From Sphaerolaimus hirsutus (Eukaryota > Nematoda > Chromadorea > Monhysterida > Sphaerolaimidae): DNA of 64,000 nucleotides. The notes beneath the pieces were generated by a model. The model made no database searches. It was not told the origin of the DNA and was given only the letters and a program-made list of their open reading frames with translations. Numbering within the stretch: the stretch's first letter is position 1; every line of letters starts with the position of its first letter. The position numbers and the translations under genes were made by a program. Below, in pieces: positions 12,655 through 38,600 of this stretch. The DNA lies in the NCBI GenBank assembly GCA_964036195.1, contig OZ038451.1:27545927-27609926 (forward strand). Reading direction: 5' to 3'.

Positions 12655-12696
12655 CACTACCTGAACCTGAACCCGATACCTGACACCAATACCTGG

Positions 12697-13018: not shown

Positions 13019-16000
13019 TCAATTTAAAAAAAATATCAAATCTACAACAAAATCCAAAACATTTAACCAACTGTGAATGTCATCGTCATCAGATTCAGAG
13101 GGATAAGACTGAATTGTCTGCTTGGCAAATTCCGCAGACTGGTTGCTCAGCACTCTGCATAGGAGACTGTTGAATACCTGCAATTGTTTTACAGTTCGCA
13201 TATCGTAAATACATAGGTATACAGTGTGGGTCAATTTAGACCGACACCTTGGATTTTGAATAACTTGACACTGGGTGTTTGGATGAGAGCCAGATTTTAT
13301 GTGAACATTAATGAATAAATAGGAAAGGATCCCTGAAAATATGGCTGCGATAGCTCCACTCTTTCCGAAGTTATTCACGCAAACGCGTAATTGTCACTTT
13401 ACCACCACCTCGTGATACGGTTCAAACGGGATCGATTTTTCGGGAGAGGGATTGGGGGGGGGGGGGCTCAGGTCCGGGATCGCGATCGTGTGAATAATAT
13501 GTGAACGAGTGTTCATGACGAACGAATTCAATGTGTTTGTATGAATAATATGTGAACGAGTGAACCTATCGCAGCCATATTTTGTGGAAACCTTTTCTAA
13601 TTAGTTGTTAATGTTCACCAAAATTTTGATCTTAATCCCACCACCCAGTGTCAAGTTATTTACATCAGCGTTCTGTGGCGCCAGGAACATAATACCTGGC
13701 GGTGGCGCTTGCCGCTGGCGCCAAAGCAAAAAGCGCCATGGCGCTTCTGGCGCATTTTCCGTCACTATGCATGAACTAAGACTGCAGCTATGAAACAAGA
13801 AACACGAGAAACAAATTCAACACAAACTCACTTCGTCCAAACTATTCGCATCCATGTATGCGCTTGTTTCAAAAAAGTCAAATGCATGTTTCGCTGCAAA
13901 CTGAAAATCATAAATGAAGATGTCTCACGTTTCACATTAAATTGAAAAAACAAATTTGTTGCTTGATCAGTAAATTATAATAATATATACCTCATTTCCC
14001 GCGTCAAATGGAACTTCTCTCCACTCATCCAAATCTGTTTTGTTAGCCACCAGCGTCACATCGACATTTTCTTTGCCATGGTTCCTGACAAAAGTGGATT
14101 GAAAATTATAAAAATGAACTAGGTATACTCCAGTAACTTTACACCCTGCACGCGTGGTTCCCGCTGGAAGCGTGCCAACGACTTTTTACGCACGCGATTT
14201 TCATAAAAAGTTGAAAAAGTCAACTCTGTTACATCGCTATGCGTTAACTTATTAACAACAATAATTTTTTCATCTTTTATACAAGAATCGCATGCTTTAC
14301 TATCATTGGCACTCTTCCAGCGTGAGACATAAATGAGTGCGAGGGTAGAGTGTCATGTCCGCCGAGTATATAGTGGTTTATTGGTGAATATACAATTCTC
14401 AGGAGTGAAACGGACAAATTAGGCATTCGTCACAGGCGTGCACCCGCAAAATAAGCGACAGGCACAAATTCAAAGAAAGATAGTGTACCAATCGTGTTAC
14501 CCCAAATACACCCACTCCCCCTATGAATTAACACCCCCACCCATAATAAGAGAATGTACACATCAAATACCGCAGTTTGTGATCTGTATGATGCAGAACA
14601 CACGTTGAAACCAATAACTATGTAAGTGACGTTTAGGACAGGGTTTATACGTACTACATACATACAGTTATTTATGTACATCTATAAACATATATATTTA
14701 CATCTATGTAATTGTTTGATTTTTCTATGTCTGAGAAAGTGGAATTTCACAAAATTTCTGCTGAAATAATATACCCCCTCGAATAAGACCCCCCTCGAAT
14801 ACCCCCCTCCTAATCTAGGGACTACCGTATATCCTTGAATAACACCCCCCTGTTGGCCAGGTGAGGAAAAAATAACGTCCACCCTTGAATAACTTCCCCC
14901 TCTTGAATAAGTCCCCCTCTGGGTAAAACAATCGATGAGCAACACACGAAAATGAAAACGAGACTAACAGAAAAATAAAGCTATGTCTGGGCTGATTCAT
15001 CGAATGGGGTTTGGTGGGTGAAACGAAAAATACAAAAGAATGTTAGCCTATGATATTTTTAGGTTTAGATGATTGAACACGAATTTTAGGATGAATACGT
15101 TGTTTTGTTTGTGTTGAACTGGTCATTTTCTGCATTAGATGTGTTGACGGAATGCATACAAACAATGAATAAAGTGAAAGTTTTCCTGGAAGTTCTGAGG
15201 AAAAAATCACTCCCCCCTTGAATAGTACCCCCCTTGAATAACTCCCCCCTCCGAAACCTCTGACAAAATAATAACGCCCCTGGGGTCTTATTCAAGGATA
15301 TACGGTATATTCTTTTCTAGGGATAAATAGCTGTTACACAAAAATTGACACTTTATCAACAACAAAACTACCTGACAAAATCTAGCCACTTATTGATGTG
15401 TCTGAATGACTGTGCATTTGTGATGTCATAAACCAGAATGACTCCCTGGGCCCTCCTGTAATACTGTTTAGTGATTGCTTCAAACCTCTCTTGCCCTGCA
15501 GTGTCCCTGAATGTCAAGGTGATCTTTTAGTGAGGGGCTTAGTTAACCATAGAGAGTTATACTGATTGGGCTGTATGGTTTTTAGAGAATTTTACCATAT
15601 TTTGATGAAAAAAGTTACATGACAAATCATGTGCAAAATAAACTGGTAGTTATGTTATAAAAAAAAGTTTTTAAGTCATATTGGGTGTGGTAGAAAAAGC
15701 TACAAAGTTTGCAGCTATTGGGATTGAAGTATTTATATGCATTTTTTTTAATGCTTACCATATGAACTGTTCCTTTTTGGAAACTGAAAATCTGGTAGTG
15801 CTTTTGAATAAAATGACGTAAAATTATGGCTCACAATGATTAATTTGATAAAAGCAACATTCATAGATGTTAAGTTACCATAAAGGATTAGTTTACAGAA
15901 ATGAGAATAATGTTTACAGATTGATTCAAATGACTTCAAATAGCTCACCAAATTTGTACCCTTACGCGTCTGCCATCAATAGTGAGATTTTTCACCTTAA

Positions 16001-16225
16001 AATCAATGCCAATTGTTGCAGAATAGGATGATTGAAAGTTGTCATCCACATACCTGTGCATTTTCTCTTTTTGACATTTTCTCTTTTTCTCTCTTTTCTC
16101 TCTCTTTTCTCAAGCAAAAATCAATATTATTGAAAGTGATCTAACCTTGACAGGAGGCAGGTTTTTCCAACACCAGAGTCCCCAATTACTAAAAGTCTCA
16201 AAAGTAAATCATATTGTTTTGACAT
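13019..16225 (-). CDS. Rab15-like small GTPase, first copy; frameshift in exon 4
   Basis: Exons in transcription order: 16225-16146, 16053-15949, 15506-15372, 14084-13990, 13900-13832, and a last exon from 13177 to at most 13019. The start [18 protein letters not shown] leads into the P-loop GDSGVGKT. Then come the switch I region ([12 protein letters not shown]), WDTAGQERF formed across the exon 2/3 junction, and [11 protein letters not shown], very close to the Rab8/10/15 group and to Rab15 in particular. The base-binding motif NKTD and FETSA follow. Rab15-type proteins act in endosomal recycling. In exon 4 the motif sits on a run of five A where four are needed, so the frame breaks inside NKTD and meets a TGA. 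This is either a sequencing error or a real lesion. The last exon ([18 protein letters not shown]...) ends without a Cys prenylation motif, so a further 3' exon may be missing; a possible GTTGGT donor lies in it. Confidence 0.8.
13214..13660. mobile_element. Diverged relative of the 12096-12654 element, in Rab intron 5
   Basis: GTGTGGGTCAATTTAGACCG, AATAACTTGACACTGGGTG and ATATGGCTGCGATAGCTCC on the left are answered by CTATCGCAGCCATATTTTG and CACCCAGTGTCAAGTTATT on the right. The right terminus is lost where the GCGCC element (13668-13770) begins. Confidence 0.6.
13668..13770. mobile_element. GCGCC-rich hAT MITE fragment
   Basis: GGCGCCAGGAAC, TGGCGCTTGCC and GCGCCATGGCGC blocks end in TTTTCCGTCACTATG, matching the inverted end of the hAT MITE at 6576-6718. 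The left end is not intact and no target duplication was identified. Confidence 0.6.
14825..15305. mobile_element. TA-target MITE present in copy A only (CCGTATATCC subfamily)
   Basis: It is bounded by TA-CCGTATATCCTTGAATAA and TTATTCAAGGATATACGG-TA. The matching spot in copy B (about 25717) reads CTAGGGACTATATTC with no insert and a single TA, so copy B preserves the empty site. This proves element ends and TA target duplication directly from the sequence. Confidence 0.92.
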
Positions 16226-16229
16226 TTCT

Positions 16230-17950
16230 GTTAGATTGAACTGAAATAAATGACATTCAAAATGATACAGAAAATTGATTATAAGACATACTAAAAGATC
16301 CTCCGCTCTAAAATCAATGTTCTATGACAAATTTCAGGAAACACACCAATACAACTGTGAAACACTTTCACATTTCTCCCAGATTCTGTTTACTATGGAT
16401 GGCACACATCTGTTGGTAGAGCACACTGTCTGCATATGAATCAGGCTTGGTTTCATGAATGAAAGCTATAACCCATACTAGCATTGGGAAAATGGGTCAT
16501 TTTTGAGAAAATATAATTAAATATAATTTCAGAGTAACACTCAGAATGATAAATTTGAATTAAATATATCTGATAAATATAGCCTTTAAAAGATCCCTGT
16601 ATAAAATAAAGGCCAGATGAAATGTGAATAAATATATATAGGTAAATGCAGTATTTTTTATATTTTGTGATATATTTTTCAAATCACAGAAAATCCCTCA
16701 AATAATAATTGTTCAATCTCTCTGGGAAATTCTGGAAAAATATAAATAAAACAGATGTTATGATTTTCTCACTAATATTTTAAATATAAATCTCCCTGAG
16801 ATTTTCCACTGCTAACCGCCACCCCACCCATGGATAATGCATACAATATACATACATACATGTACTCACACACACCATACATAGAACAGAGTGCTACCGT
16901 AGTTTGATGAATAAAGATGTGTGAAATGTGCATTATGCATTATGTCTCAAATTCAGTGATAGTGGGGGTGATCAGTGGGGATCAGAACAATTGACATATT
17001 TATTGTTGTTGTTTTATTCAGATGATATATGGTATATTCCATTGCAAAGTAGAAACCAGTGGATTATGAATACATATATATCAAACAGCAATGTTTAGTG
17101 ATTTCTAGAGTGTGCTTTAGTGCATCAAATTGTGTATGCTTTGTAAAAGTGCTGATTTGATTTTGCTGTGTGAACTGTGAATAGGTATTTTATATGTGTG
17201 ATTTTCATAAATTCTGCAGTTTACACCAAATTTTCATATGTATGTGAACAGCTTGAGTGTGCATATACAATTTCCCCATTTTTTACATAAACGTGTATCA
17301 ATGTAAAAATGCACAAATCCCCCGAGGAACTAAATTCAAGGTATAGTAAAACATGCTGACAGCAAAACGATAGGTACAACATGTGGCCACTTGTATATCT
17401 GTTTGCAGTGTGTACACACCATAAAATCTATATATGTTTGAATTACCATATTTTTCAGAAGTATAAATTTCCACGTGGAATTTGGGTGGAGATATAAAAA
17501 AGAAAAAATATTTAAAGTGAATGGAGATAAAAACGTCCAAAAGCAAAGGGCATTTAGAGATTTGATATATCATCATAAATATGAGAAGCTGAGAACTTGA
17601 AAAATACCTATCTGACATTGTGAGTTTTTTTTATCATACAAGATCAGAAAGTTAGAAATTACTTGGCACATTTTTTAAATTCAATAAATCTTGTATTTGA
17701 ATAAAAAAATGTTTGCACGTGCCAACCTGCTGTAAAATCCGGGTTATATTCGGGACAAAAATCAGATTTGAACGCTTTTGGGTTTACCGGAATGAGCGAT
17801 TGTGACAACCGTCAACTTCTTACAGTTGACGAAGATCGAAAGTTATTCAGTATCGACGGTGGTCAAGTCAAATGTGTTTTAAACATGCGTATAGGTAAGT
17901 ATCGGAAATTTCAGCTGTAAACATACCGTATTTCCTCGAAATTTAAAAGC
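16230..17950. other. Rab upstream region without a supported gene
   Basis: AT-rich DNA 5' of the Rab start codon, closely matched at 26630-28330. It holds an old element with CATTGGGAAAATGGG and CCACTGCTAACC ends (16473-16815) and a hairpin-type repeat with GTCAAC...GTTGAC near 17800. No coding signal was found. Confidence 0.6.
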
Positions 17951-17952
17951 TA

Positions 17953-18203
17953 CCGTATTTCCTCGAAATACCCCCCCTCGAAATACCCCCTCAAAATGGG
18001 CACTATGAATTTGTGGTCCGGGAAATGCATAACAGACGTTCAAAACACTTACTGTGTTACGTTAGAACATCGTTTATTTCTACATCCTTATACAAGGCTG
18101 TAAAAACTTACGATGGTGGTTATTGTTGCATTTTTCACGTTTCTCTCTCAAAATTTTCACTCTGAAAAAATAAACCCCTGGGGGGTATTTCGAGGAAATA
18201 CGG
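17953..18203. mobile_element. TA-target MITE present in copy A only
   Basis: It is bounded by TA-CCGTATTTCCTCGAAATA and ATTTCGAGGAAATACGG-TA. The equivalent place in copy B (about 28325) runs from CAGCTGTA straight to TATGCTCTTTCC, without this element. Confidence 0.85.
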
Positions 18204-18730
18204 TATGCTCTCTCCATTACATTATGGTCAATTTTTAATCGCTTCAACAGAATACAACAACAACACACTCCCATCTTCCACAAAAACTGTGCAACGAAAA
18301 AAATGACCGCGGTGTATCGATAGATCGCAATTGTTTCATCCAAAAAAACCATCTGCCCCCGTTCTCTGTGACGCGCGAAAATCATCAGTTATCATTCATA
18401 GAAATTTTTCTTAAATAAATAATTATGATCTGAGATGATACGCGATGCAAAAACATGTGCATCCATTCACTTGAGATAATTAGTGACATTTAGATATGTG
18501 GTTTAATTTGCCAATTAAGAGGCCATTTCAATTTTTTCGGGTCATAATAAACAACTAAAAGCATGTGTGCGTGGCGCTTTTTACGTCAATACTCTGCAGT
18601 TTGGATAGATCTGGTGGAACGCCCCTGAATTGACATTGTCAACTTATGCAACATATCCGTTGTCAGTATAAATATCAATACGTCAGTTATGTATATCGTA
18701 TGTAAAATACAATTGCGCGTGCCTCCATAC

Positions 18731-20146
18731 TAGTGATGCAAAAGCGCCATGGCGCTGGCGCCTGGCTGTGACGCCATAGTAGAAAGGGCCACGATGGCGC
18801 TTTTGGGGGCTTGCCGGTATTCTTCCATTGCGCCAGGATCAAAACATAAGAAATAGTTAAGTAAAAATAGTTGTTGAAACATATTTACCGTATTACCTCG
18901 AAATACCCCATGGGGGTTTATTATTTCGCCAGCAAAATTTGAGGGGGGGTTCATTCGAGGGGGGGTTTATTCGAGGGGGGGGGTTTATTATTTCGTCAGA
19001 AATTTTCGTAAGAATCGTAGTAAATAGTAGGCATTTGCATACCCAAAACAGGTAATAAATGTGTCCAAACAGGATATATTTGGACATAAAAACGTAGATA
19101 GCTACACAAACTAGTCTATGTGTAGCTGCAATGCAAATTAACAGTAATATACATCATGTACATTGCATACATGACGTATTTATTATGTACATGACGTACA
19201 TCATTCCAAAGGGGGGGTATTTCGAGGGGGGGGGGTTTATTATTTCCCCAGCCCATTTTGAGGGGGGGTTAATTCGAGGGGGAGGTTAATTCAAGGGGGG
19301 GGGGATAATTCGAGGTAATACGGTACTTTTACTCGATAAATACATATACTCGAGTATACTTGAAATAGATATACATTTCCTGTGAAAAACGTTATTGTAC
19401 ATATTATTTTTTGTATACTTTTTGAAAGTACTTGAGTAAAGAAAAAGTATTGCTTTTTCAAAGGGTGTTAAAAGGAGAAAAGGGTGTAAAAAGGCTAAAT
19501 AAAAAAAAATAGGCTAAAAAATATTAATAGACAAAAAATGCATATAAATATAACATCATTAGCATTGAAAAAATCTCTGGGAGATTTTTTCATAATATCT
19601 CAGAAAATACAAGATTTTCTGAGATTTATATTTTTTCTAGAGAGATTTTATTATATTTTCTTTTTGAGAGACTTTCTGAGATTTGAAAAAAATCTCAAAT
19701 TCTTATGTTGATATTTATAAATATTTTTTCCGGGTTTTTTGAGAGAGATTTCATTGTATTTCTTCTTGGGAGATTTTCTGAGACTATATTTCATTACATT
19801 TTCTAAAAATTGCTGATTCTTTCATTTGCTAAAGATCATATCAAGTCAAATATGCGAATTCACAGGTGAAAATGGGCCAAAATATGAAAATTACGATTTT
19901 GAATGAAAAGTGGGTCAAAATTTCTCAAAATACTCACTTTTTCTGTTTTCTGGGGAAAAGTATCTCACTCATAAGTAAAATAAAACAAGTACTTTACGTT
20001 TTCTGTACTCAGAGAGAGTAAAAATAAATACTTAATGTTTACGTATACTTTGGAAAATATTTGGCACTTAAAACAACTCTGGATGAATACAACGATGGCG
20101 CTGTTGGCGCTTGGCGCCAAATTCCTGGTGATTTTTTACACCACTA
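18731..20146. mobile_element. hAT-type element of about 1.4 kb in copy A, carrying a nested TA-MITE
   Basis: The left end is TAGTGATGCAAAAGCGCC and the right end TTTTTTACACCACTA. The flanks CTCCATAC (18723-18730) and CTCCATGT (20147-20154) agree at six of eight positions. The equivalent stretch of copy B (around 32110-32350) lacks it. It includes AGATTTT/AATCTC-rich and TACGTTTTC-rich blocks and the TA-MITE at 18888-19323. No transposase frame is visible. Confidence 0.65.
18888..19323. mobile_element. TA-target MITE, CCGTATTACC subfamily, nested in the hAT-type element
   Basis: It is bounded by TA-CCGTATTACCTCGAAATA and ATTCGAGGTAATACGG-TA. Its interior matches 10085-10509. Confidence 0.8.
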
Positions 20147-20525
20147 CTCCATGTCCACACTCAATTGCGCACTTCAAGACATCACGCATGTGAAATTGTT
20201 CATGGAAATTCCACACAACACAACACTTCTAATTACGTATCAATCAACATCTGCAGGGGTCAGATATATACAAAACTAGATGATGATATCTAATTTTCGA
20301 AACCGTGATTAAATCCAGCCCGCACTGTATAAACGATGTGAATTTGAAATCTATAGTTTGACCTTTACGCATTTTCAATTCGCGTTTTGTGTAAAAGTGT
20401 GAAGCGATTTTCTAACAATTGTGTTTGAGGCTGTGAAGTTTAATCATTTACCGGTCACTATTATTAAACATTTACGATTAAAGTATATTATGATATAATT
20501 GTCTAATTTAATTGGTGAATTAATT

Positions 20526-23475
20526 ATGTGGCCAATATTAATTACGTTCCTGTTTTCGTGGCACCATGCTTGTGGTTGGTTCAGCTGTGCGAAATATAAT
20601 TGAGGTCGATAGAAGTCGGTCGATAGAAGACCAAATCATTTACTGGTCTAAAAGTCGATAACTCCAAAATTGCACAAATTGTATTAAACAAAGAAATGGC
20701 CTGAAGAATTTGTCCCGCACACTTTTTAAATTTTTCCAAATTTTTCGAGAGTGCTTACCCCGTTTAAGTGTTACATTTCGGCACTTAAGCGAGGTGGTGG
20801 TTAAGTGACAAGCGCATTAGCGTAAATAACTTGTGAATGAGTAGAGCTATCGCAGCCATATTTTCATGGATTCTTTCCAATTTAGTCGTTAATGTTCACC
20901 TAAAATTTGACGTGAATCCAACCACCCAGTGACAAGTTATTCGAAATTACTGCACCCTGTACATATCTTCATAAACCCCAGGCCAATTCCCGCGACAAGG
21001 CCCCGCGCCAGCCACAGGGATCCCCTTGCAATTCGCCGGCTACGTAACTCCCAGGACAAATGTCTTTGCACCCAGTGAAGCCATGGTCAGAGGTAGGTTT
21101 CGGTTCGAAGTGGGGGTTCAGTATAAAAAATATATAAAGGACATTTTTGAGTGGTTATTGGACAGGGGGGGGGGGGGCTATTTGAGGGTTTAGGGTATGT
21201 GGGTGGAGTTTTGGTGAAGGTTTACTCGCTGCGGCAAATAGGGGCTATGAGAATCTAATTTTTATTTGAATAAAATGTTAGAAAAATGATTAGAGGTTGA
21301 TTTTTACTAGTTGTGGCAAACAATAATACTAAATTGGTGAACGTTTTCAACTTGTTTTCGAAATTTTGTTGTACAGTGAAACCCCCCCTGTAAAACCACA
21401 TCTTAAAAAATCTCAAGAAACATCCCACACCCATTTTCTACTATGACACATTTTTCAACCTCAAAAAACCTCCAATCCAAAAACCATTTCAAACAAATCT
21501 GAAAACCTTCAAAACTGCCCGCAGGTTTGTCCAGCTGGGCAGCGTGGTCACACTGGTCAACGTGCACAAATGACCACCAAATGAGGGTTAGAGCCTGCAG
21601 TACTGTCAGGGGATTCAGGTGTGTTACCGTATTTTGCACAATAGACCTAGTTACAATAGAAGGGCAGGTAGAGAAGTTAATGGCGATTTTCTATTTGGAT
21701 TAATGCTGCGATTACAGCTCGGGCGTAAAATTGACTGGGCGTAAAATTGATTTTTGGGCGTAAGATTAATTACAGGTGAATAGATAAAGATATGGCATTG
21801 TAATTTCAGTCAAAGAAAGCGCACATGCAGATGTTGCTTGTGTCCAAAGCCCATCAATTTATTTTAATCGTACTGGGAGTTATGAATTTTGGCGCAAATT
21901 TTTTTTATTTTACACCCTAATTTTACGCAACCTACAGCGCATAGTTGAAAAAATTGTGCTAAAATTCATAACTCCCAGTACGATTTAAATAAACGCATGA
22001 GCTTTGGACACAAGAAACGTCTGCATCTAAGCATTCTTTGACTGAAATAACAATGTCGAATCTTTATCCATTTATCTGTAATTAATTTTACGCCCAAAAA
22101 TCAATTTTACGCCCGAGTTGTAATCGCAGCATAAATACGGCGTTTTATTGAAGAGACCTGTCGGTTCGATTGGAGTTATTAGGCTTCAAATTGTTCCTGC
22201 GAAAATTATAATACACCGTATTTCCTCGAAATACCCCCCTCAAAATGGGCACTATGAATTAATAAGGCCACCCTCGAAATCCCCCCCAAATTGACTGCAA
22301 ACGGAACGTAAATGACCAAAGCTCTGGACAGTGCAGAACACACGTGAAAACAATGTGTGTTACGTTAGAACAGAGTTTATACCATGTACATATATATATA
22401 TATATACCTAAGTCTATAGACTCTTATACATGGTGGTTCTTATTGCATTTTTCTATGTCTGCATACGTTTGAAACAACAAATTAGTACTGGGAGTTCAAG
22501 AAATAATACCCCCTCCCTCGTTAACCCCCCCCCCCCCCTTCCAAATTTCCACTATGAAAAAATAAAGCCCCGGGGGGTATTTCGAGGAAATACGGTATAC
22601 ATATTATTTTATTAGATACATATTATTTAACATAAAATTTTATAACTCAAATTTCCGAATTGTCGGAATAGTGATTTTTACAATTTCCCTTTTTGTATTT
22701 TAGTCACCTGCGTTTTACTGAATTTCAAGACGGAAAATCATTTCAAATTCGACTGAAAAAAGTCAATTTCACTGCGAGCAGGTGCATGGGCAATTCGATG
22801 GATAGACGGATGTGCGGTGAAATGTTGCGAAAGGCAGTTATGAAAACTAAAGTTTTACCGGTGCGTCAGACATTACTGATTCGTTTCTGATTTTGAATGA
22901 CTAAATGTTAATTTTTTTAATTTTCTAATTTCATTTTAATACTCGGCGGACCGCATGCTATGCCTTTTTACCGAACTAAATAGTCCACCATGACGTCATC
23001 CATCATGACGCCATCAATACTACAAAAATTGACCCAAAATGAATAAAATAGTTTCAGGCAGTTAACATACTTACCTATTTTATTTTAAAAGTATTTTTAT
23101 ATTTTTTTGTCAAAGTGCATACATAAGTTTCCCGTTGCTACGTTGGCCCGTAAGACATTTAGCATTTACCATACATTCCAGTATTAACACTCTAAAACTG
23201 GGGAAGATATTTACGTTTAAGTTTACATTTTCCAAAAATGCCAATATTTTAACAACCCTGAGAACCATTCACACAAAATTAACTTCACACTTCACACTTC
23301 ACACTTCACACTTCACAGGTGGTCCGCCACACGGATGACTACGTAGTAGAAGATCCCTATGAAGAAGATAGGATAATCGCGTATGAGCAAATGCAGCCAC
23401 CGCCCGCAAATTACATGCAATTGTTAATTGCCGGAAAAATTGACAGGGACGCGGCGGCGACCAGAAATTTCGGAG
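20526..23475 (+). CDS. Secreted matrix protein, copy A: 5' exons 1-5 only
   Basis: Exons: 20526-20574, 20982-21092, 21525-21618, 22704-22860, 23319-23475. Exon 1 codes MWPILITFLFSWHHACG, a short signal peptide. Exon 2 is Pro-rich (FPRQGPAPATG). Exon 3 has the W-x-x-W-x-x-W-x-x-C signature of a thrombospondin type-1 repeat (LSSWAAWSHWSTC) and exon 4 ends with a Cys pair (RCMGNSMDRRMC). Exon 5 (VVRHTDDYVVEDPYEEDR) is acidic and Tyr-containing. All exon phases agree with each other and with the second copy. The remaining exons would fall beyond the 200-N gap. This copy is most likely the other allele of the gene at 32698-47840. Confidence 0.78.
21704..22131. mobile_element. Harbinger-like MITE with TAA target duplication
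   Basis: It begins TGCTGCGATTACAGCTCGGG and ends GTAATCGCAGCA. TAA flanks both sides (21701-21703 and 22132-22134), a TWA target as in PIF/Harbinger elements. The same insertion, with a damaged left end, is in copy B at 34365-34782, so it predates the split of the two copies. Confidence 0.78.
22216..22595. mobile_element. TA-target MITE shared by both copies
   Basis: It runs from CCGTATTTCCTCGAAATA to ATTTCGAGGAAATACGG. Copy B has it at about 34867-35238 with a mutated first end (CCGAATTTCC) and last end (ATACAG), so this insertion is older than the divergence of the copies. It lies in the intron before exon 4 of the matrix gene. Confidence 0.8.
23283..23317 (+). repeat. CTTCACA minisatellite at a splice acceptor, five units
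   Basis: Five head-to-tail CTTCACA units run directly into the CACAG acceptor of exon 5 of the matrix gene (copy A). They supply its pyrimidine-containing tract. Copy B has ten perfect units at 36018-36087. Confidence 0.9.
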
Positions 23476-23583
23476 GTGGGTATAAGAAGGGGGTTTGAAT
23501 ATGATTGCAGATTTTTGTGGGGTGAATGCAATAGGTATGTAAATATGTAAAAGTCACCTGGGGCCAGATGACTTTCTCGAGTA

Positions 23584-23795
23584 CCGTATTTCTTCTAATA
23601 GAAGAGCGCCGTTCTATTTATGTCGTCAACTTTTTTACCTGTCGTTCTATTAGAGGTGCCGTTCTATTGGAGGCTGCCGTTCTATTAATTTCGTGAATGC
23701 AAAAAAGTGCCAAAACATGCCGTTCTATTGGAGGTGCCGTTCTATTGGAGGTGCCATTCTATTTGAGGTATGCCGTTCTATTATAAGAAATACGG
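23584..23795. mobile_element. TA-target MITE, CTAATAGAA subfamily
   Basis: It begins CCGTATTTCTTCTAATAGAA and ends TATTATAAGAAATACGG. GCCGTTCTATTGGAGGT is repeated inside. Copy B carries a shorter form (about 36362-36478), with an internal deletion of repeated units or fewer units. Confidence 0.75.
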
Positions 23796-24403
23796 TGATG
23801 TAAGTAAGCTATGCCCTATATGCCTGGCAAATTAAGATCTGTATATGAAATAATTTTCAATGAACTTTTATGCATTTTATCGCAATTTGTTCCCTCACAT
23901 TATGATGCCGTTTTCACTCACGCATTACTCAATATAGCAATCAGACAGAATGTTACCTGGCAGTCAGCCATATTTTCTTTGGGAATTTTGGCAGATTGCC
24001 AGGAAACTTTCTGTTAGCTTTAACCATATCACAATGTCATGAAAAACATTGTGATGAAACACTTTCCCACTATTCGAGATTTAAATCCAATGTTTGTGCA
24101 TAAATAGTTTTTATTTATATACATTTTAGTTTGCCAGGTGCCTTGCTAGGGTACAGCTTAGGTATATAAATACTCACATTACTCAATGTTGGAATCTTGC
24201 CTCCGGAGTTAAACCGGTGTATTTTAATTGATTCATTGGCTGTCATTTGATGCTGCACATTAGAATTGATGTACTCAGATGGTGTATACTGTATATACGT
24301 CTTTGCTTAGTACCCCTCGAATAACTCCCCCAGAAGAAATGCCCCCCCCCGTGTAAGCTGCGTAGGAGAGAAGTAAACTTATGATTAAATTTAGAAGTGC
24401 ATA

Positions 24404-24817
24404 CCGTATTTCCTCGAAATACCCCCCCCGGGGGGGTGATTGTTTCATATTGCTCCCCGGGAGGGGGGGGGGGGGTTTAAACGAGGGGGGGGTATTTCGA
24501 GGGGGGGGGGGGGGTTGCGCTGGGGGTAGAAAAAATGCATCAATAACTGACATGTAAAGACTCCTGTAGACTAATATTAGTACGTAGATGTATAACAACT
24601 GTTCTAAACGTGATTCCGACATTGTTTTAAACGTGTGTTTCTGCACTACGCAGAGCACAAACTGCAGTTATTTGCAATGTACGTTCTCTTTACACTCAAT
24701 TTTGGGGGGGTATTTCGAGGGGGGGTGATTGTTTCATAGTGGTCTCGAGAGGGGGGGGGGGGGGGTCAAAACGAGGGGGGGGTATATCGAGGGGGGGGGT
24801 ATTTCGAGGAAATACGG
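24404..24817. mobile_element. TA-target MITE in copy A only
   Basis: It is bounded by TA-CCGTATTTCCTCGAAATA and ATTTCGAGGAAATACGG-TA. Copy B at about 37095 reads AGAAGTGCATGGTCACAAAC with no insert, so it is an empty site apart from one base. The left half repeats the right half in inverted orientation around long G runs. Confidence 0.88.
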
Positions 24818-24859
24818 TAGTCACAAACAACACATAAAATGTTCTGGTACGAAGTAATG

Positions 24860-25059
24860 NNNNNNNNNNNNNNNNNNNNNNNNNNNNNNNNNNNNNNNNN
24901 NNNNNNNNNNNNNNNNNNNNNNNNNNNNNNNNNNNNNNNNNNNNNNNNNNNNNNNNNNNNNNNNNNNNNNNNNNNNNNNNNNNNNNNNNNNNNNNNNNNN
25001 NNNNNNNNNNNNNNNNNNNNNNNNNNNNNNNNNNNNNNNNNNNNNNNNNNNNNNNNNNN
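24860..25059. other. Assembly gap of exactly 200 N
   Basis: A round-number placeholder, usual for a scaffold join of unknown distance. The sequence before it equals the sequence at 37098-37137, and the sequence after it starts inside a MITE within the Rab intron. Confidence 0.99.
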
Positions 25060-25259
25060 CTTTACAAGTCTTTAGACTTAGAGTCTTATAAATGGCGATT
25101 TTTGTTGCATTTTCGACGTCTGCGTACGTTTCAGACGACAATTTAGTACTTGGTTTTCAAAAAATTTCTGGCGAAATAATAACCCCCCCCTCAAAATACC
25201 CCCCCCTCAAAATTCTCACTCTGAAAAAAAAACCCCGGGGGTATTTCGAGGAAATACGG
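25060..25259. mobile_element. TA-target MITE, right part, starting at the gap
   Basis: Only the right part is present. It ends ATTTCGAGGAAATACGG-TA and contains the TCTTATAAATGGCG and GACGTCTGCGTACGTTTCAG blocks typical of the family. A contig beginning in such a repeat fits an assembly break. Confidence 0.8.
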
Positions 25260-25798: not shown

Positions 25799-26622
25799 CT
25801 GACAAAATCTAGCCACTTATTGATGTGTCTAAATGATTGTGCATTTGTGATGTCATAAACCAGAATGACTCCCTGGGCCCTCCTGTAATACTGTTTAGTG
25901 ATTGCCTCAAACCTCTCCTGTCCCGCTGTGTCCCTGAATGTCAAGGGGGTGTTTTGGTGAGGGGCTTAGTTCTTCACAGAGAGTTATACTGATTGGGCTG
26001 TATTTATGGTTTTTGATAAATTTGACCATATTTTGATGAATAAAGGTACAAAATATGTGCCAAATAAACTGGTAGTTATGTTATTAAAAAAATCGTTTTT
26101 AGTCATATTGGGTGTGGTAGAGAAAGCTACAAAGTTTGCAGCCATTGGGATTGAACTATTTATATGCAGTTTTATTAATGCTTACCGTATGAACTGTTCC
26201 TTTTTGGAAACTGAAAATCTGGTAGTGCTTTTGTAGAAAATGACCTATGGCTCACAATGATTCATTTGATTAAAGAAATATTCATAGATTTTAAGTTACC
26301 ATAATGGATTAGTTTACAGAAATGACTACAGATGAAATTACAGATTGATTCAAATGACTTCAAATAGCTCACCAAATTTGTACCCTTACGCGTCTGCCAT
26401 CAATAGTGAGATTTTTCACCTTAAAATCAATGCCAATTGTTGCAGAATAGGATGATTGAAAGTTGTCATCCACATACCTGTGCATTTTCTCTTTTTGACA
26501 AGTAAATCAAGCAAAAATCAATATTATTGAAAGTGGTCTAACCTTGACAGGAGGCAGGTTTTTCCAACACCAGAGTCTCCAATTACTAAAAGTCTCAAAA
26601 GTAAATCATATTGTTTTGACAT
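25799..26622 (-). CDS. Rab15-like small GTPase, second copy, exons 1-3 only
   Basis: Exons in transcription order: 26622-26543, 26477-26373, 25933-25799. They match the first copy in length and splice phase (80, 105 and 135 bp), with silent changes visible in exon 3. They encode the P-loop GDSGVGKT, switch I, the WDTAGQERF junction and the YYRRAQG helix. Exons 4-6, with NKTD and FETSA, are missing because the block begins at the gap inside intron 3. The gene is cut by the assembly, not obviously a pseudogene. Confidence 0.8.
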
Positions 26623-28356
26623 TTCTGTTAGATTGAACTGAAATAAATGACATTTAAAATGATACAGAAAATTGATTATAAGACATACTAAAAGATCCTC
26701 TGCTCTAAAATCAATGTTCTATGACAAATTTCAGGAAACACACCAATACAACTGTGAAACACATTCACATTTCTCCCAGATTCTGTTTACTATGGATGGC
26801 ACACATCTGTTGGTAGAGCACACTGTCTGCATATGAATCAGGCTTGGTTTCATGAATGAAAGCTATAACCCATACTAGCATTGGGAAAAATGGGTCATTT
26901 TTGATAAAATATAATAAAATATAATTTCAGAGTAACACTCAAAATGACAAATTTGAATAAAATATATCTGAGATAAGCCTAAAAAACATCTCTGTAAAAA
27001 AAAAGGCCAGATGAAATGTGAATAAATACATATATGTAAATGCAGTATTTGTTATATTTTGTGATATATTTTTAAATCACAGAAAATCTCTCAAATAATA
27101 ATTGTTCAATCTATCTGGGAAATTCTGGAAAAATATAAATAAAACAGATGTTATGATTTTCTCACTAATATTTTAAAGGTAAATCTCCCTGAGTTTTTCC
27201 ACTGCTAACCGCCACCCCACCCATGGATAATGCATACACAATATACATACATGTACTCACACACACCATACATAGAACAGAGTGCTACCGTAGTTTGATG
27301 AATAAAGATGTGTGAAATGTGCATTATGCATAATGTCTCAAATTCAGTGATAGTGGGGGTGATCAGTGAGGATCAGAACAATTGACACATTTATTGTTGT
27401 TGTTTTATTCAGATGATATATGGTATATTCCATTGCAAAGTAGAAACCAGTGGATTATGAATACATATATATCAAACAGCAATGTTTAGTGATTTCTAGA
27501 GTGTGCTTTAGTGCATCAAATGGTGTATGCTTTGTAAAAGTGCTGATTTGATTTTGCTGTGTGAACTGTGAATAGGTATTTAGGTAATGTGTGATTTTCA
27601 TAAATTCTGCAGTTTACACCTAATTTTCATATGTATGTGAACAGCTTGAGTGTGCATATACAATTTCCCCATTTTTTACATAAACGTGTATCGATGTAAA
27701 AATGCACAAATTCCCCCGAGGAACTAAATTCAAGGTATAGTAAAACATGCTGACAGCAAAAACATAGGTACAACATGTGGCCACTTGTATCGCTGTTTGC
27801 AGTATGTACACACCATAAAATCTATATATGTTTGAATTACCATATTTTTCAAAAGTATAAATTTATTTCCACGTGGAATTTGGGTGGAGATATAAAAAAG
27901 AAATAATATTTAAAGTGAATGGAGATAAAAACATCCAAAAGCAAAAGGGATTTAAATATTTGATATAGGTATCATCATAAATATGAGAAGCTGAGAACTT
28001 GAAAAATACCTATCTGACATTGTGAGTTTTTTTATCATACAAGATCAGAAAGTTAGAAATTACTTGGCACATTTTTTAAATTCAATAAATCTTGTATTTG
28101 AATAAAAAAATGTTTGCACGTGCCAACCTGCTGTAAAATCCGGGTTATATTCGGGACAAAAATCAGATTTGAACGCTTTTAAGTTCACCGGAATGAGCGA
28201 TTGTGACAACCGTCAACTTCTTACAGTTGACGAAGGTCGAAAGTTATTCAGTATCGACGGTGGTCAAGTCAAATGTGTTTTAAACGTGCGTATAGGTTAG
28301 TATCGGAAATTTCAGCTGTACCTAAATATATGCTCTTTCCATAACAGTGGCTCTAA

Positions 28357-28587
28357 ACACACTAGTTTTCATCGTGACTGATGTGAAAACTGAAATGGCC
28401 GCATGGCGGCATCCAGTCCACTCTTTTTGTATGCTTTATGTGTTTTTCTTTTCAAATTTTTAAATTTTAACTTTCATTAATTTAAATTCAAATTCTAATT
28501 AAATAAAATCATTCAACCGTGTTCATTAATTTGCATTTGAAAAAATTTCAGTTTTCTCACGAAGTCACGGTGAAAACTAGTGTGTGT
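28357..28587. mobile_element. Hairpin MITE (CACACTAGTTTTC ends), copy B only
   Basis: The left end CACACTAGTTTTCATCGTGAC is mirrored by GTCACGGTGAAAACTAGTGTG. In copy A the flanking sequence is joined without it (about 18205-18225). It shares the ACACTAGT terminus with 7476-7641, suggesting one superfamily. Left end written here as 20 bases or fewer: CACACTAGTTTTCATCGTGA. Confidence 0.7.
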
Positions 28588-29097
28588 AGGCACAAAATGG
28601 TCAATTTTTAATCGCTTCAACATAATACAACAACAACACACTCCCATCTTCCACGAAAACTGTGCAACGAAAAAAATGACCGCGGTGTATCGTTAGATCG
28701 CAATTGTTTCAACCAAAAAAAACATCTGCCCCCGTTCTCTGTGATGCGCGAAAATTATCAGTTATCATTTATAGAAATTTTACTTTAAAAAAATAATTAT
28801 GATATGAGATGATACGCGATGCAAAAACATGTGCACTCATTGAATTGAGATGTTGATTACTTTCGTTGATAATCGTTGGTCACTTAAGAGTTTGTTTCGA
28901 ATTTTTGCCAGTCATAAACAAGTGGCGCTCATTACATCACTATTCTTCAGTCTGACATAACGATGGAAAAAACACAGAAATTGAACACAGAAACTCATTG
29001 AGTTTCTGTGTTTTTGTTTTACACAGAAACACGGAAACTCACAAATTTAGAAAAAACTCAAAACTCAAATGAGTTTTTTTTCGGAGAACACAGGAAC

Positions 29098-30913
29098 CAG
29101 AGTTGGAAAAACGTATTTATGTTTACCCGAAATACTCGGTTATTCGGGTATTTATACTTACATTTATGTTTACGTTTTCCAAAAATACCATTACGTGTTG
29201 TTACGTTTTCCTGACCAAAATACCCGGGTACAAGGGAAAACGTAAAAAAAAACTTGTGATCGTTCACATGATACATACATACAAAACATACTTACAAAAA
29301 TGTAGTGTATGAAAAAAGTGACTGCACACTTGCACTTACACATGGAATACTGGGTACATATTCATAAATGTGTTCAAAAGCTGAACACAAAAACCTTTTT
29401 GTTTGATTCTGGAGCATTGCGTTTATAATTTTTTTGTGATGAATTCCAACGACACCACTTGCAACAACTGTGAGTAGTACATGTTTCAAAACTGGCAGGG
29501 CGAGTGCAAGCTTTGGTGCCAATCCCAGACTCTGTTGGATGCCCTGTAAAATGTAAAATTTCATGCAAATGTCAAAACTCATGTAAAATGCCCACCATAG
29601 GCGGCGCAAGGTCCCAATTTGTGCTTGTGACATTCACAATCACATTGGCCAAAATTTGACCTTGTGCACTTTTTACCAGGTAAACATATGTATTTCTGCT
29701 TGTGACACCGAAAATTCCACTTGTGACATTCACAAGCGCACAAGCACTTACGCCGCCTATGATGCCCACCAAAATGGCAAAGATTTGCAACCTTCCAGGG
29801 CACTTTGCAAGACTTTAGACACTTTGCATGCCATTTGACATATTACAAGGCATTTTACAGGGTCTGGGACTCCCCCAGAATCACCAGTGTTAGTTGGATT
29901 TAGCCACACTTACTACAGAAAGTGGTGCAGATGGAATGATTGACCCACCTGAAGGTGAAAATAATGGTATATTCCAAAGCACAATGTCAAATATGGTGTG
30001 TAAAAAATTTTACGTTTATGTTTTTTTTTACGTATTGTTTGGTATTTTAAAAATACCTTACGTTTTAGTATTTATACTTTTTATTTGGAAAAGGTATTTA
30101 TGTTTACGTTTACGTTTTCCAAAAATACCATTACGTGTTGTTACGTTTTCCTGACCAAAATACCCGGGTACTAGGGAAAACGTAAAAAAAACTTGTGATC
30201 GTTCACATGATACATACATACAAAACATACTTACAAAAATGTAGTGTATGAAAAAAGTGACTGCACACTTGCACTTACACATGGAATACTGGGTACATAT
30301 TCATAAATGTGTTCAAAAGCTGAACACAAAAACCTTTTTGTTTGATTCTGGAGCATTGCGTTTATAATTTTTTTGTGATGAATTCCAACGACACCACTTG
30401 CAACAACTGTGAGTAGTACATGTTTCAAAACTGGCAGGGCGAGTGCAAGCTCTGGTGCCAATCCCAGACTCTGTTGGATGCCCTGTAAAATGTAAAATTT
30501 CATGCAAATGTCAAAACTCATGTAAAATGCCCACCAAAATGGCAAAGATTTGCAACCTTCCAGGGCACTTTGCAAGACTTTAGACACTTTGCATGCCATT
30601 TGACATATTACAAGGCATTTTACAGGGTCTGGGACTCCCCCAGAATCACCAGTGTTAGTTGGATTTAGCCACACTTACTACAGAAAGTGGTGCAGATGGA
30701 ATGATTGACCCACCTGAAGGTGAAAATAATGGTATATTCCAAAGCACAATGGCAAATATGGTGTGTAAAATTTTTTACGTTTACGTTTTTTTTTTACGTA
30801 TTCCTTGGTATTTTAAAAATACCTTACGTTTTAGTATTTATACTTTTTATTTGGAAAAGGTATTTATGTTTACGTTTATGTTTTCCAAAAATACCAGTAT
30901 TTGCACAACTCTG
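29098..30913. mobile_element. hAT-type element (CAGAGTTG ends) with an internal tandem duplication
   Basis: The ends CAGAGTTG and CAACTCTG are flanked by ACAGGAAC (29090-29097) and ACAGAAAC (30914-30921), matching at seven of eight bases. Inside, a unit of about 0.8-0.9 kb is present twice (about 29160-30100 and 30120-30880), nearly identical. The first unit carries an extra 166-bp MITE (29596-29761). Short frames in the unit are shared by both copies but show no family similarity I recognise. Confidence 0.8.
29596..29761. mobile_element. hAT MITE (CATAGGCGGCG ends) with exact 8-bp duplication and an empty site nearby
   Basis: 166 bp from CATAGGCGGCG to CGCCGCCTATG, flanked by exact ATGCCCAC repeats (29588-29595 and 29762-29769). 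The second internal unit of the host element, at about 30527-30540, shows the uninterrupted ATGCCCACCAAAATGG. CTTGTGACATTCACAA motifs repeat inside. Confidence 0.93.
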
Positions 30914-32697
30914 ACAGAAACACGGAAACACAGAAAAAAATTTTCTGAGTTTTTGAGGTTTTTTTCAGCGAAGTGGTTGAACACATTTTCAGAACGCACA
31001 TGAATTCAGTTAAACTGAACAAGATAAGTTATACATGTACACTACCGTGCAGAATAGTTGAGACTTTTCACACATAGAGAAACAGTAGGCTGGGGGTCCA
31101 TCGCACTTTTTTGCTTCCCAATTTCTTGTCCCTTGCCCAATTTTGATGCCGTTTGAGTATGTTGGGGTTCGATGCTGGGGCTACTATGAACATATTTTGT
31201 TTGCACAAATAATCCCCCAGGCTTGAGATAAGGGGGGTCCATAAAAAGATGGTCAATAAATATACAAAAAATGGGCAATCTGGGTGAGTGTCTTTGAAGC
31301 TCAATAACTCAACCATAGCTGATTTGAATCATTGAACACTTAAAATAATTGGGACAACCTGCGGATTCTATTTTTGTGGCGGGTTTAGTGACGTCTAAAT
31401 TCTGTAAGTCAATTTGACCCAGTTTTTGAACATGATAAAATAATTTATTGGAACATGCTATCATATACTTTAGACAACCAGGATTCATTTAAAACAAAAA
31501 TGAGTTCAATATCTGATCCCAATCAAAAGTTATGGCGCTTCAAAAAATTTCAATGGTGTTTAAATATTTTATGCTTATTTTAATGGGGTTTGCAACATGA
31601 AAATTTTGTTATTGAACAGTCTATAACATACTTTAGACAGAGAGAATTAATATGACAAAAAAGTTTTTTCAATATCTCTTTCCAATCATAAGTTATAGCA
31701 CTTACAAACTTCCATCGTCATTCCATCCAAACAAATTGCACATTACTCATTCACAGTTGGGCCAACTTGTTGGGAAAAAACTCAAAAAAACTTGAGTTTT
31801 CACAGAAAACACAGAAATAAAAACAGAGTTACTCAAGTTTTTTTCGATAAAAAACTCAAAACACAGGTATTCATTTTTGAAAAACTCAAAACACAGGTAT
31901 TCATTTTTGAAAAACTCAAAACACAGGTATTCATTTTTGAAAAACTCAAAACACAGAAAGTGTTGTTTTTTTGAGAACTTACCCATCGTTGGTCTGACTG
32001 AATCTGGACTGGAACGCCCCTGAGTTGACATTGTCAACTTATGCAACAAATCTGTTTTCAGTAGATAAATATAAATACGTCACTCACATCGTATGTCAAA
32101 TATAATTGCGCATATGCTGAGATATTTTACTCATTGTCTCGATACACACTTATTAGTACATCAATGAAGTTAGGGAAACTTCTAGATCAGTTTTGAAAGC
32201 ATTTGAGTTCACCAGAATGAATTATTTCTGACCGCCGTCAACAGTAGTTGACAGACTCCTCATTCTGGTCAACTCAAATGCGTTCCAAACACATTTATCA
32301 GTTTCCCAAATTTCAGTGGCGTACTAGACTAGTGTGTGCAGCGTAAATTGCGCATGCAATTGTGCAATTGTTCATGGAAATTCCACACAACACAACACTT
32401 CTAATTACGTATCAATCAACATCTGCAGGGGTCAGATATATACAAAACTAGATGATGATATTATATTTTCGAAACCGTGATTAAATCCAGCCCGCACTGT
32501 ATAAACGATGTGAATTTGAAATCTATAGTTTGACCTTTACGCATTTTCAATTCGCGTTTTGTGTAAAAGTGTGAAGCGATTTTCTAACAATTGTGTTTGA
32601 GGTCGAGAAGTCAAATCATTTACTGGACACTATTATTGAACATTTACGATTTGAGTATATTATGATATAATTGTCTAATTTAATTGGTGAATAAATT

Positions 32698-35600
32698 ATG
32701 TGGCCAATATTAATTGCGTTCCTGTTTTCGTGGCACCATGCTTGTGGTTGGTTCAGCTGTGCGAAATATAGTGCAGGCGTTCACTTCGAAAAGGCGACAA
32801 CTCAAAAATTTTCGAAGTTTATTGAGGACAGAAACGACATCTAGCCGTTCCCGCATATTTTTCATAATTTTAAATACTTTCCTAACGACACTTGCCTCTT
32901 TTTAAAGTGTCATATATCGACACTTTTCGAACAATTTTCAAAAGGTATTTAGCAAGAAGTCGGTAACCCCATGCAGTATACAGCAAAAGTCGATAAACAA
33001 TAACAAAAACACTAAAGACGTCAACAAAATCTTTTAAAAGTATCAATGTACAAATTTCACTTAAAACAACAAAACAACAGTTCACCAATATTTTTGTGCT
33101 TTAATTGATGATTTGCTTGGTTTACACGGATTAAACATTTGTTGAATTTTGTCTTAATTGAGCGACTCCTCGATTCTCTTTAAATTGAGTTTCAAACATA
33201 AATTTTTCATAAAAAAATTCAAAAACATCAAAGTATACGCGGCGGACATCACACTTAGTAAGAAAACCTACCATAACCCATCTGAATAATGAACCCAGAA
33301 TTATACAGTTATTTTCATCATAGTATTTCGTTTTTACTATGGAATAATAAATAAGGAAATTTATCACAAGATTTTATTCATCAAATTATGGTAGGTTTTC
33401 ATACTACGTGTGCTGTCCGCCGAGTATAATAAATATTCGTCAACCTTTCATTTCACGCTCCACCTACACCCCCCAATAAGTAACCCCCCTTACCCAAACC
33501 CCTCCCCCCCCAATAAGTAACCCCCCTCACCCAAACCCCTCCCCCCAATAAGTAACCCCCCTTACCCAAACCCCTCCCCCCAATAAGTAACCCCCTTACC
33601 CAAACCCCCCACACATACCTAGCCTCATAAACCCCAGGCCAATACCCGCGACAAGGCCCCGCACCAGCCACAGGGATCCCCCTGCAATTCGCCGGCTATG
33701 TAACTCCCAGGACAAATGTCTTCGCACCCAGTGAAGCCATGGTCAGGGGTCGGTTTCGGTTCGAAGTGAGGGTTCAGTATAAAAAAATATAAAGGACATT
33801 TTTGAGTGGTTATTGGACGGGGGGGGGCTATTTGAGGGTGAAGGGTTTGTGGGTGGAGTTTTACTGGAGGTAGCGAGAGTTTACTCGCTGCGGAAATAGA
33901 GGTATCTAGGTAATTTTTATTTGAATAAAATGTTAGAAAAATGATTAGAGGTAGATTTTTACTAGTTGTGGCGAACAATAATACTAAATTTGTGAACGTT
34001 TTCAACTTGTTTTCGAAATTTTGTTGTACAGTGGAAACCCCCCTGGAAAACCACACCTTAAAAAAAACTCAAGAAACATCCCACACCCATTTTCCACTGT
34101 GACAGTGACACATTTTTCAACCTCAAAAAACCTCCAATCCAATAACCATTTAAACCCATCTAAAAACCTCCAAAATATTCCGCAGGTTTGTCCAGTTGGG
34201 CAGCGTGGTCACACTGGTCAACGTGCACAAATGACCACCAAATGAGGGTTAGAGCCTGCAGTACTGTCAGGGGATTCAGGTGTGTTACCGTATTTTGCAC
34301 AATAGACCTAGTTACAATAAAAGGGCAGGTAGAGAAGTTAATGGCGCTTTTCTATTTGGATTAATGCTGCGCGAATTGAAAATTGACGGGCGTAAAATTG
34401 ATTTTTGGGCGTAAGATTAATTACAGGTGAATGGATAAAGATATGGCGTTGTAATTTCAGTCAACGAAAGCGCACATGCAGATGTTGCTTGTGTCCAAAG
34501 CCCATCAATTTATTTTAATCGTACTGGGAGTTATGAATTTTGGCGCAAATTTTTTTTATTTTACACCCTAATTTTATTAATTTTACAGCGCATAGTTGAA
34601 AAAATTGTGCTAAAATTCATAACTCCCAGTACGATTTAAATAAACGCATGAGCTTTGGACACAAGAAACGTCTGCATCTAAGCATTCTTTGACTGAAATA
34701 ACAATGTCGAATCTTTATCCATTTATCTGTAATTAATTTTACGCCCAAAAATCAATTTTACGCCCGAGTTGTAATCGCAGCATAAATACGGCGTTTTATT
34801 GAAGAGACCTGTCGGTTCGATTGGAGTTATTAGGCTTCAAATTGTTCCTGCGAAAATTATAATACACCGAATTTCCTCGAAATACCCCCCTCAAAATGGG
34901 CACTATGAATTAATAAGGCCACCCTCGAAATCCCCCCCAAATTGACTGCAAACGGAACGTAAATGACCAAAGCTCTGGACAGTGCAGAACACACGTGAAA
35001 ACAATGTGTGTTACGTTAGAACAGAGTTTATACCATCTACATATATATATATATATATAAGTCTATAGACTCTTATACATGGTGGTTCTTATTGCATTTT
35101 TCTATGTCTGCATACGTTTGAAACAACAAATTAGTACTGGGAGTTCAAGAAATAATACCCCCTCCCTCGTTAACCCCCCCCTTCCAAATTTCCACTATGA
35201 AAAAATAAAGCCCCGGGGGGTATTTCGAGGAAATACAGTATACATATTATTTTATTAGATACATATTATTTAACATAAAATTTTATAACTCAAATTTCCG
35301 AATTGTCGGAATAGTGATTTTTACAATTTCCCTTTTTGTATTTTAGTCACCTGCATTTTACTGAATTTCAAGATGGAAAATCATTTCAAATTCGACTGAA
35401 AAAATTCAATTTCACTGCGAGCAGGTGCATGGGCAATTCGATGGATAGACGGATGTGCGGTGAAATGTTGCGAAAGGCAGTTATGAAAACTAAAGTTTTA
35501 CCGGTGCGTCACACATTTCTGATTCGTTTCTGATTTTGAATGACTAAATGTTAATTTTTTAATTTTCTAATTTAATTTTAATACTCGGCGGACCGCATGC

Positions 35601-38600
35601 TATGCCTTTTTCCGAACTAAAACAGTCCATCATGACGTCATCTATCATGACGCCATCAATACTACAAAAATTGACCCAAAATGAATAAAATAATTTCAGG
35701 CAGTAAACATATTTACCTACCCATTTTATTTTAAAAGTCTTTTTATATTTTTTTGTCAAAGTGCATACATAAGTTTCCCGTTGATACGTCGGCCCGTAAG
35801 ACATAAGTATGTGCGGATGCATACTGTGTAACATTCTATTTAGCATTTCCAAGGTATTTAAAAGCTAGGTAAATGATATTTAGCATTTACCATACGTTCC
35901 AGTATTAACACTCTAAAACTGGGGAAGATATTCACGTTTAAGTTTACATTTTCCAAAAATGCCAATATTTTAACAACTCTGAGAACCATACACACAAAAT
36001 TAACGTCACACATCACACTTCACACTTCACACTTCACACTTCACACTTCACACTTCACACTTCACACTTCACACTTCACACTTCACACATCACAGGTGGT
36101 CCGCCACACGGATGACTACATAGTAGAAGATCCCTATGAAGAAGATAGGATAATCGCGTATGAGCAAATGCAACCCCCGCCCGCAAATTACATGCAATTG
36201 TTAATTGCCGGAAAAATTGACAGGGACGCGGCGGCGACCAGAAATTTCGGAGGTGGGTATAAGAAGGGGGTTTGAATATGATTGCAGATTTTTGTGGGGT
36301 GAATGCAATAGGTATGTAAATATGTAAAAGTCACCTGGGGCCAGATGATTTTCTCGAGTACCGTATTTCTTCTAATAGAAGAGCGCCGTTCTATTTATTT
36401 CGTCAACGTTTTTACCTGCCGTTCTATTAGAGGTGCCGTTCTATTGGAGGTATGCCGTTCTATTATAAGAAATATGGTAATGTGAGTAAGCTATGCCCTA
36501 TATGCCTGGCAAATAAAGATCTGTATATGAAATAATTTTCAGTGAACTTTTATGCATTTTATGCATTTTATCGCAATTTGTTCCTAACATTATGATGCCG
36601 TTGTCACTCACGCATTACTCAATATAGCAGTCAGACATAATGTTTCCTGGCAGTCAGCCAAATTTTCTTTGGGAATTTTGGCAGATTGCCAGGAAACTTT
36701 CTGTTAGCTTTAACCATATCACAATGTCATGAAAAACATTGTGATGAAACACTTTCCCACTATTCGAGATTTAAATCCAATGTTTGTGCATAAATAGTTT
36801 ATATTTATTATATACATTTTAGTTTGCCAGGTGCCTTGCTAGGGTACAGCTTAGATAAATTTAAATAAATACTCACATTACTCTATTTTGGAATCTGGCC
36901 CCCGGAGTTTAACCGGTGTATTTTAATTTATTCATTGGCTGTCATTTGATGCTGCACATTAGAATTGATGTACTCAGATGGTGTATACTGTATATACGTC
37001 TTTGCTTAGTACCCCTCGAATAACTCCCCCAGACGAAATGCCCCCCGTGTAAGCTGCGTAGGAAAGAAGTAAACTTATGATTAATTTAGAAGTGCATGGT
37101 CACAAACAACACATAAAATGTTCTGGTGCGAAGTAATGTAAAAGGGTCATGATGATGCCAAAGCAAAAACATCTTTGCGTTTTCGCCGCTTGGCGCCAAA
37201 TTTTTGGTGTGGTGACATCAGACATGGTGATTGGTGCATGGTAGGGTGTCAAATTTCCGTTTCCATTTTCCGTTTCCGCTTTTCCACAGGAAAATTTTTT
37301 ACCTTTCCGTTTTCCGTTTTCCGGCAGCTGAAAATTTTTTACCTTTCCGTTTTCTGTTTTCCGGCAGCTGAAATTTTTTTCCTTTCCATTTTCCGTTTTC
37401 CAGCCGATAATTTTTTTTTACCTTTCCGTTTTCCGTTTTCCGTAGAGTTAAAAAGTTTTACCTTTCCGTTTTCAGTAAAAAAATTTTTTTGGCACCCTAG
37501 TGCATGGCGCTACTTATTGCCAAAAGCGCCACACGTGCGGAGTTATTCGAGAGGGCTTACCTAGTCAACAGTATATGGATATTTCACAAGTATTCAAAAG
37601 GAACCAATAACTACCATATTTCCTCGAACCCCAATTCATTGTTCACCAGACAACTTTCATCGGGGTCATTTAATGGGGGCGTTATTCGAAGGGATTTCAT
37701 GTTATTTTAAATCCATAATGAATTCATCCCCAAAACTTATTGAAACATGAAGAGCTTGTCGAGTAGCAATGATAAGGAGAAAACGTAAAAAAACAAACAA
37801 CTAAAGTACATTATGCTGCGATTACAGCTCGGGCATAAAATTTACCGTGCGTAAAATTGATTTTGGGCGTAAAATTAATTAAATATGAATGGATAAAGAT
37901 ACAACATTGTTATTTCAGTCAAAGTAAGCTTAGATGCGGACGTTTCCTGTGTCCAAACCTCATGAGTTTATTCTAATGGTACTGAGAGTTATGAATTTTA
38001 GCACAATTTTTCAATTATGTGCTGTAAGTTGCGTAAAATTAGGGTGTAAAATTGAAAAAATTTGTGCCAAAATTCATAACTTCTAGTACAATTAAAATAA
38101 ACTGATGAGCTTTGGACACAAGCAACATCTGCATGTGCGCTTTCATGACTGAAATAACAACACCATATCTTTATCCATACACCTGTAAATAATTTTACAC
38201 CCAAAAATCAATTTTACGCCTGGTCAATTTTTCACCCGAGCTGTAATCGCAGCATTAAAGGCAGCCAATTCTAGTTATTTGCAAAATTTACTTCCTCACA
38301 GAAACCCCAAGGAATGGTAACTTTCGCTTTTTTGAAGTGTCATACATGACATTTTTGGACAAATTTCCAAATAAGTTTTGCAACACATCAATCTAAATAT
38401 GATAGGACAGTCTGATTCCAGCTAAACGTAAATCACTGTCGTAGTACATTTTTGTGGAAGAGAAAACGGTTGAATGTTGATGAAAGTCCATGATGAAAGT
38501 CCATGATGAAAGTCAATTTAATAACTCAACACCTCATTTTTGAGTGCACATCGTAACTGAAATTGGTATACTCTGTGGACCGCAAAGTATGCATACGCAC

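Follow-up and report, generated by a model that had tools for sequence, protein, structure and literature searches.

The locus described here raises the question of whether two copies of the same genes, lying on either side of an assembly gap in the nematode Sphaerolaimus hirsutus, represent a real duplication or two alleles of one locus that were placed end to end. The window, i.e., the whole 64,000-nt stretch of DNA that was analyzed (C2:27545927-27609926), belongs to an assembly whose 762 scaffolds total 348,482,957 bases. Judging from the assembled sequence, we give a probability of about 0.91 to the explanation that the two copies, A and B, are alleles of a single locus joined end to end, which is called heterotype false duplication in the terminology of the Vertebrate Genomes Project as excerpted from PMC8081667. 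Probably, no gene duplication at the locus is real, and the arrangement would be an ordinary assembly artefact. An earlier note on this DNA had proposed a false duplication arising from two overlapping haplotype contig ends, and the proposal is supported by the complementary truncation of two genes, the gap, the divergence of the copies, one-sided MITE insertions, and the selection test described below.

Comparison of the window with itself demonstrated that A and the homologous part of B share an identical order and strand (Table 1). Realignment of the two copies gave 7 collinear blocks with 7,039 aligned sites, 6,739 of them identical and 300 different (4.3%), and with 45 indels that total 318 bases; the scores of the main blocks reach 3,371 bits, so that chance is no explanation for the match. 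These blocks bear out the claim of the earlier note that the same genes occur in the same order and strand on either side of the gap, and the block coordinates given there were correct within 2 bases. By summed block lengths, A is aligned over ~69% and B over ~60% of its length, and the remainder is mostly one-sided, made up of insertions (MITEs and others) and of two central stretches, not mentioned in the earlier note, in which homology is nearly absent (A 18477-20189 versus B 28851-32361, and A 20598-20960 versus B 32770-33616). These stretches speak against the interpretation as alleles, for which they constitute a large structural difference. Taken together, the 300 substituted sites, the 45 indels, and four one-sided MITEs place two copies at a putatively haplotype-level divergence within one scaffold. 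Inside the first of the B stretches having almost no homology to A, a separate internal tandem duplication was observed in a single contig (29163-30896), in which 29163-29597 corresponds to 30103-30536 with 99.1% identity and 29762-30130 to 30527-30896 with 97.8% identity.

Table 1. Coordinates of the gap, the two copies, and the genes and insertions discussed in the text (window positions)
Feature	Position	Strand	Remarks
Scaffolding gap	24860-25059		Exactly 200 N; sole N run in the window
Copy A	14368-24859	+	End of left contig, up to the gap (proposed haplotype 1)
Copy B	25060-37138	+	Start of right contig (proposed haplotype 2); homology to A spans 25267-37138
Rab exon 4 (near 14044), exon 5, probable last exon	11936-14100	-	Exon ends placed by eye
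Rab exons 1-3 in A	16146-16225, 15949-16053, 15372-15506	-	Exons 1-5 joined: Pfam Ras, E 1.1e-56
Rab exons 1-3 in B	26543-26622, 26373-26477, 25799-25933	-	Gene then cut by contig start
TSP1/'matrix' exons in A	20984-21109, 21527-21618 (TSP1), 23319-23475	+	Exon limits inferred; gene then cut by contig end
Same three TSP1/'matrix' exons in B	33640-33765, 34188-34279, 36096-36252	+	
Repeat-rich ORFs and second TSP1-like exon (near 46540)	40359-46600	+	Beyond the duplicated blocks, to the right of B
MITE, B only	25060-25259		Truncated by contig start; followed by TA (25260-25261); A lacks it at 14367
MITE, A only	14825-15305		Perfect TA duplication 14823-14824 / 15306-15307; B empty site 25717-25718
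MITE(s), A only	17926-18203		Flanking TA; element-free site in B near 28328
MITE, A only	24404-24817		TA duplication; B empty site 37097-37098 reads TG

The 200-N gap that had been reported between the copies is present and falls exactly at their junction. The homology of A extends to the final base before it, with 39 of 40 bases at 24820-24859 matching 37099-37138, and A therefore stops in the middle of shared sequence, as had been noticed before. On the other side, homology begins at 25267, after the MITE that is cut by the contig start, so that on either side of the gap the overlap continues up to the contig end. The start of B falls beyond Rab exon 3 in the direction of exon 4 and hence in Rab intron 3, inside a MITE, in agreement with the earlier description. 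The further claim that both contigs were broken in repeats held for B and failed for A, which ends 40 bases past a MITE. The junction between the two units, which in a true tandem duplication is expected to be read within one contig, is the N run itself. A second gap, also of exactly 200 N, occurs in another scaffold of the same assembly (C674:30575-30774), and its recurrence suggests that 200 is a preset placeholder length; gaps 'each marked by 200 Ns' were likewise reported for an assembly made with hifiasm and YaHS (PMC12134992). The flanks of this second gap (C674:22575-39999; 8 kb on the left compared with 9.2 kb on the right) contain 5 inverted collinear segments with 81-95% identity among 13 segments listed, the other 8 lying off the collinear line. 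These inverted segments may represent either a head-to-head join of alleles or no more than transposons, and we gave them no weight as evidence.

The positions of the exons explain what each copy retains. The Rab gene is complete in A, as far as it was modelled, with exons 4 and 5 and the probable last exon, which ends in KKKCC* at position 11936, lying to the left of A and outside the duplicated blocks; the copy in B is cut after exon 3. The Rab splice sites that could be placed were, by eye, kept in both copies. By sequence, the closest solved structure to the gene product is Rab-10, and the gene itself presumably most resembles Rab15. Conversely, the copy of the TSP1/'matrix' gene in A is cut at the gap, and the one in B runs on beyond the end of B. 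The TSP_1 match in this gene (E 0.0062, 17.1 bits) lies below the Pfam cut-off of 21.6, and the repeat-rich frames together with the second TSP1-like exon to the right of B are probably the rest of the gene. Rab is thus complete only through A and the 'matrix' gene continues only past B, and the pieces complement each other; that the first copy has the whole Rab gene and half of the matrix gene, and the second the reverse, had been recognized before and is confirmed by the exon placement.

Several other features of the window were recorded. Minisatellites with a 51-base unit (42180-43062 and 44358-45648) can be read, through open frames 357 and 552 codons long, as YGQPATQKPYAQPAQQS, a repeat rich in proline and glutamine, and a Pfam search of the larger frame (552 codons) at E 1 gave no match. 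When 10 ORFs, one of them inside B, were searched against Pfam, the only matches above the curated cut-off were two LRR families in one ORF. A palindrome-like inverted repeat at 54630-56099 is 87.8% identical to its own reverse complement over 1,486 aligned columns. Scans of the window for Rfam families at the gathering threshold and for tRNAs yielded 0 matches each.

Four MITE insertions distinguish A from B, and for three of the four an empty site could be read in the other copy. For the B-only element, the A side (at 14367) is only roughly alignable. The A-only element at 24404-24817 sits between the preceding aligned block and the last 40 bases of A, and a MITE-like sequence at A 22215-22597 lies within one continuous aligned block and is therefore common to both copies. 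The element at 14825-15305 appears young, with CCGTATATCCTTGAATAA termini and a TA duplication, and the right-hand 311 bases of this region have at least 38 further strong matches elsewhere in the genome, with 96-98% identity among the 40 of 2,091 candidates that were scored. Such presence/absence differences bear on the idea that one haplotype was assembled twice as a result of sequencing error (homotype false duplication), in favor of which the copies do meet at a gap, at contig boundaries. However, neither substitutions at 4.3% of sites, mostly silent in the exons compared, nor whole MITE insertions are sequencing errors. The copies are not identical apart from error, and this idea, to which we assign next to no chance, was rejected.

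A tandem duplication and an allelic overlap both give the order X-U-U-Y, and geometry alone therefore cannot separate them. Decay of the orphan halves would separate the two, unless the duplication is young. We therefore compared the exons that are present in both copies under a neutral model in which one truncated copy per gene has evolved without constraint from the time of divergence. Over the 106 codons of Rab exons 1-3, 8 synonymous changes and no nonsynonymous change separate the copies; the three matrix exons differ by 9 synonymous and 2 nonsynonymous changes, giving 17 versus 2 in combination, and neither stops nor frameshifts were found in the compared exons of the two genes. Under neutrality, the rate of all aligned sites predicts ~11.6 nonsynonymous changes, and the probability of seeing no more than 2 is P = 0.0008; with the synonymous rate, the expectation rises to ~30 (P = 4e-11). 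At the slower, aligned-site rate, Rab alone gave P = 0.0048, and the matrix exons alone gave P = 0.052, by which neutrality is not rejected at 5%. The cut halves of both genes are under purifying selection and are not decaying.

These data contradict, mainly through Rab, an old tandem segmental duplication in which the truncated Rab gene in B and the truncated matrix gene in A are relics. Such a duplication shares the observed geometry and would account for a divergence of 4.3% and for the transposon differences, but the relaxed constraint expected of it was not found; we rejected it on the selection test and consider it very unlikely. One aspect of the same comparison counts against alleles: synonymous divergence, at 17/152 sites (11%), is ~2.5 times that of aligned noncoding sequence (281/6,323; 4.4%), an excess that may come partly from the omission of noncoding sequence that could not be aligned.

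In a genome search with 2 kb of A (window 15000-17000), of whose 2,091 candidates 40 were scored, the non-MITE part (1.7 kb) matched A and B and no third place; any full-length copy would be expected to score well above the MITE copies that were listed. This result weighs against a misjoin, by the scaffolder, of two paralogous loci from different parts of the genome, both carrying a complete Rab-matrix pair. Wrong joins at gap-flanking contig ends can occur, but it would be unexpected for two such ends each to be missing exactly what the other has, and we regard this origin as extremely unlikely and, within the candidates scored, rejected it on the genome search. Separately, no clear haplotig of the window was present among 15 fetched stretches (14 from other scaffolds and 1 from beside the window on C2), with matches listed from at least 400 aligned columns. 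The longest match was 838 columns of AT-rich sequence, between one of these stretches (L017) and window 39170-40005.

A recent real tandem duplication was also considered. Two strongly diverged haplotypes could have undergone an unequal exchange that put both alleles of the Rab/TSP1 gene pair on one chromosome, as a polymorphism; the order X-U-U-Y would result in this case too, and intact halves with divergence at the level of alleles would also be predicted, because there has been no time for the halves to decay. However, the contig break would then have to coincide with the junction by chance, and the junction, which would fall inside the gap, is nowhere read. In addition, a 12-kb tandem whose units differ by ~4% and by dozens of indels should presumably be easy for accurate long reads to resolve. 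This origin appears unlikely.

The interpretation of A and B as alleles draws most of its weight from the selection test and from the position of the gap exactly at the junction; diploid allelism, the history of the assembler, and the role of the scaffolder are inferred within it. The animal would be highly heterozygous, and A and B would be alternative alleles of a single locus that were built as separate contigs because of the ~4% substitutions and the many insertions. The left contig, from haplotype 1, would end at 24859, and the right contig, from haplotype 2, would start at 25060, which corresponds to a point ~12 kb earlier in the coordinates of the locus. This heterozygous overlap may have escaped purging, and the scaffolder may have placed the contigs next to each other with a standard spacer of 200 N between them. 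In reality, the locus would then consist of one Rab gene and one TSP1/'matrix' gene in a divergent arrangement, without duplication.

This type of artefact is already well described. As in the heterotype false duplications of PMC8081667, separate, diverged haplotype contigs would both have been placed in the primary assembly; the cases in the excerpted text of that paper were identified by half coverage, haplotype-specific variants, and k-mers, whereas A and B were assigned from the assembled sequence. The 4.3% divergence between A and B exceeds the heterozygosity quoted there for the genomes concerned (zebra finch 1.6%, others 0.1-1.1%) and is close to the 3.2-4.2% quoted for amphioxus (PMC12862219). 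The term 'heterozygous overlap' was used in the purge_dups paper, which, in the part excerpted, states that long-range scaffolders do not handle such overlaps to the knowledge of its authors (PMC7203741). As in that case, an overlap between primary contigs of homologous chromosomes would be retained here; a call by purge_dups also uses low coverage on both contigs, whereas our assignment is made on sequence. According to PMC9516828, false duplications are marked by a gap separating the copies, by a read depth of one half, by discordant read pairs, and by one-copy k-mers. The same text describes NPNT and NPNT-like in the zebra finch assembly bTaeGut1.0 as a false gene gain, in which one of the two partial genes lacks 5' exons and its neighbor beyond the gap lacks 3' exons. 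The window similarly contains adjacent partial genes across a gap, each lacking exons at one end; unlike in the zebra finch example, in which one gene is affected, two divergent genes are cut, one per side.

An annotation of this assembly would likely contain two spurious additional partial genes, one Rab and one TSP1, and would overcount the locus. As a by-product, the join provides a direct view of the two proposed haplotypes of this animal, which would differ by 4.3% substitutions and by the presence or absence of MITEs with readable empty sites.
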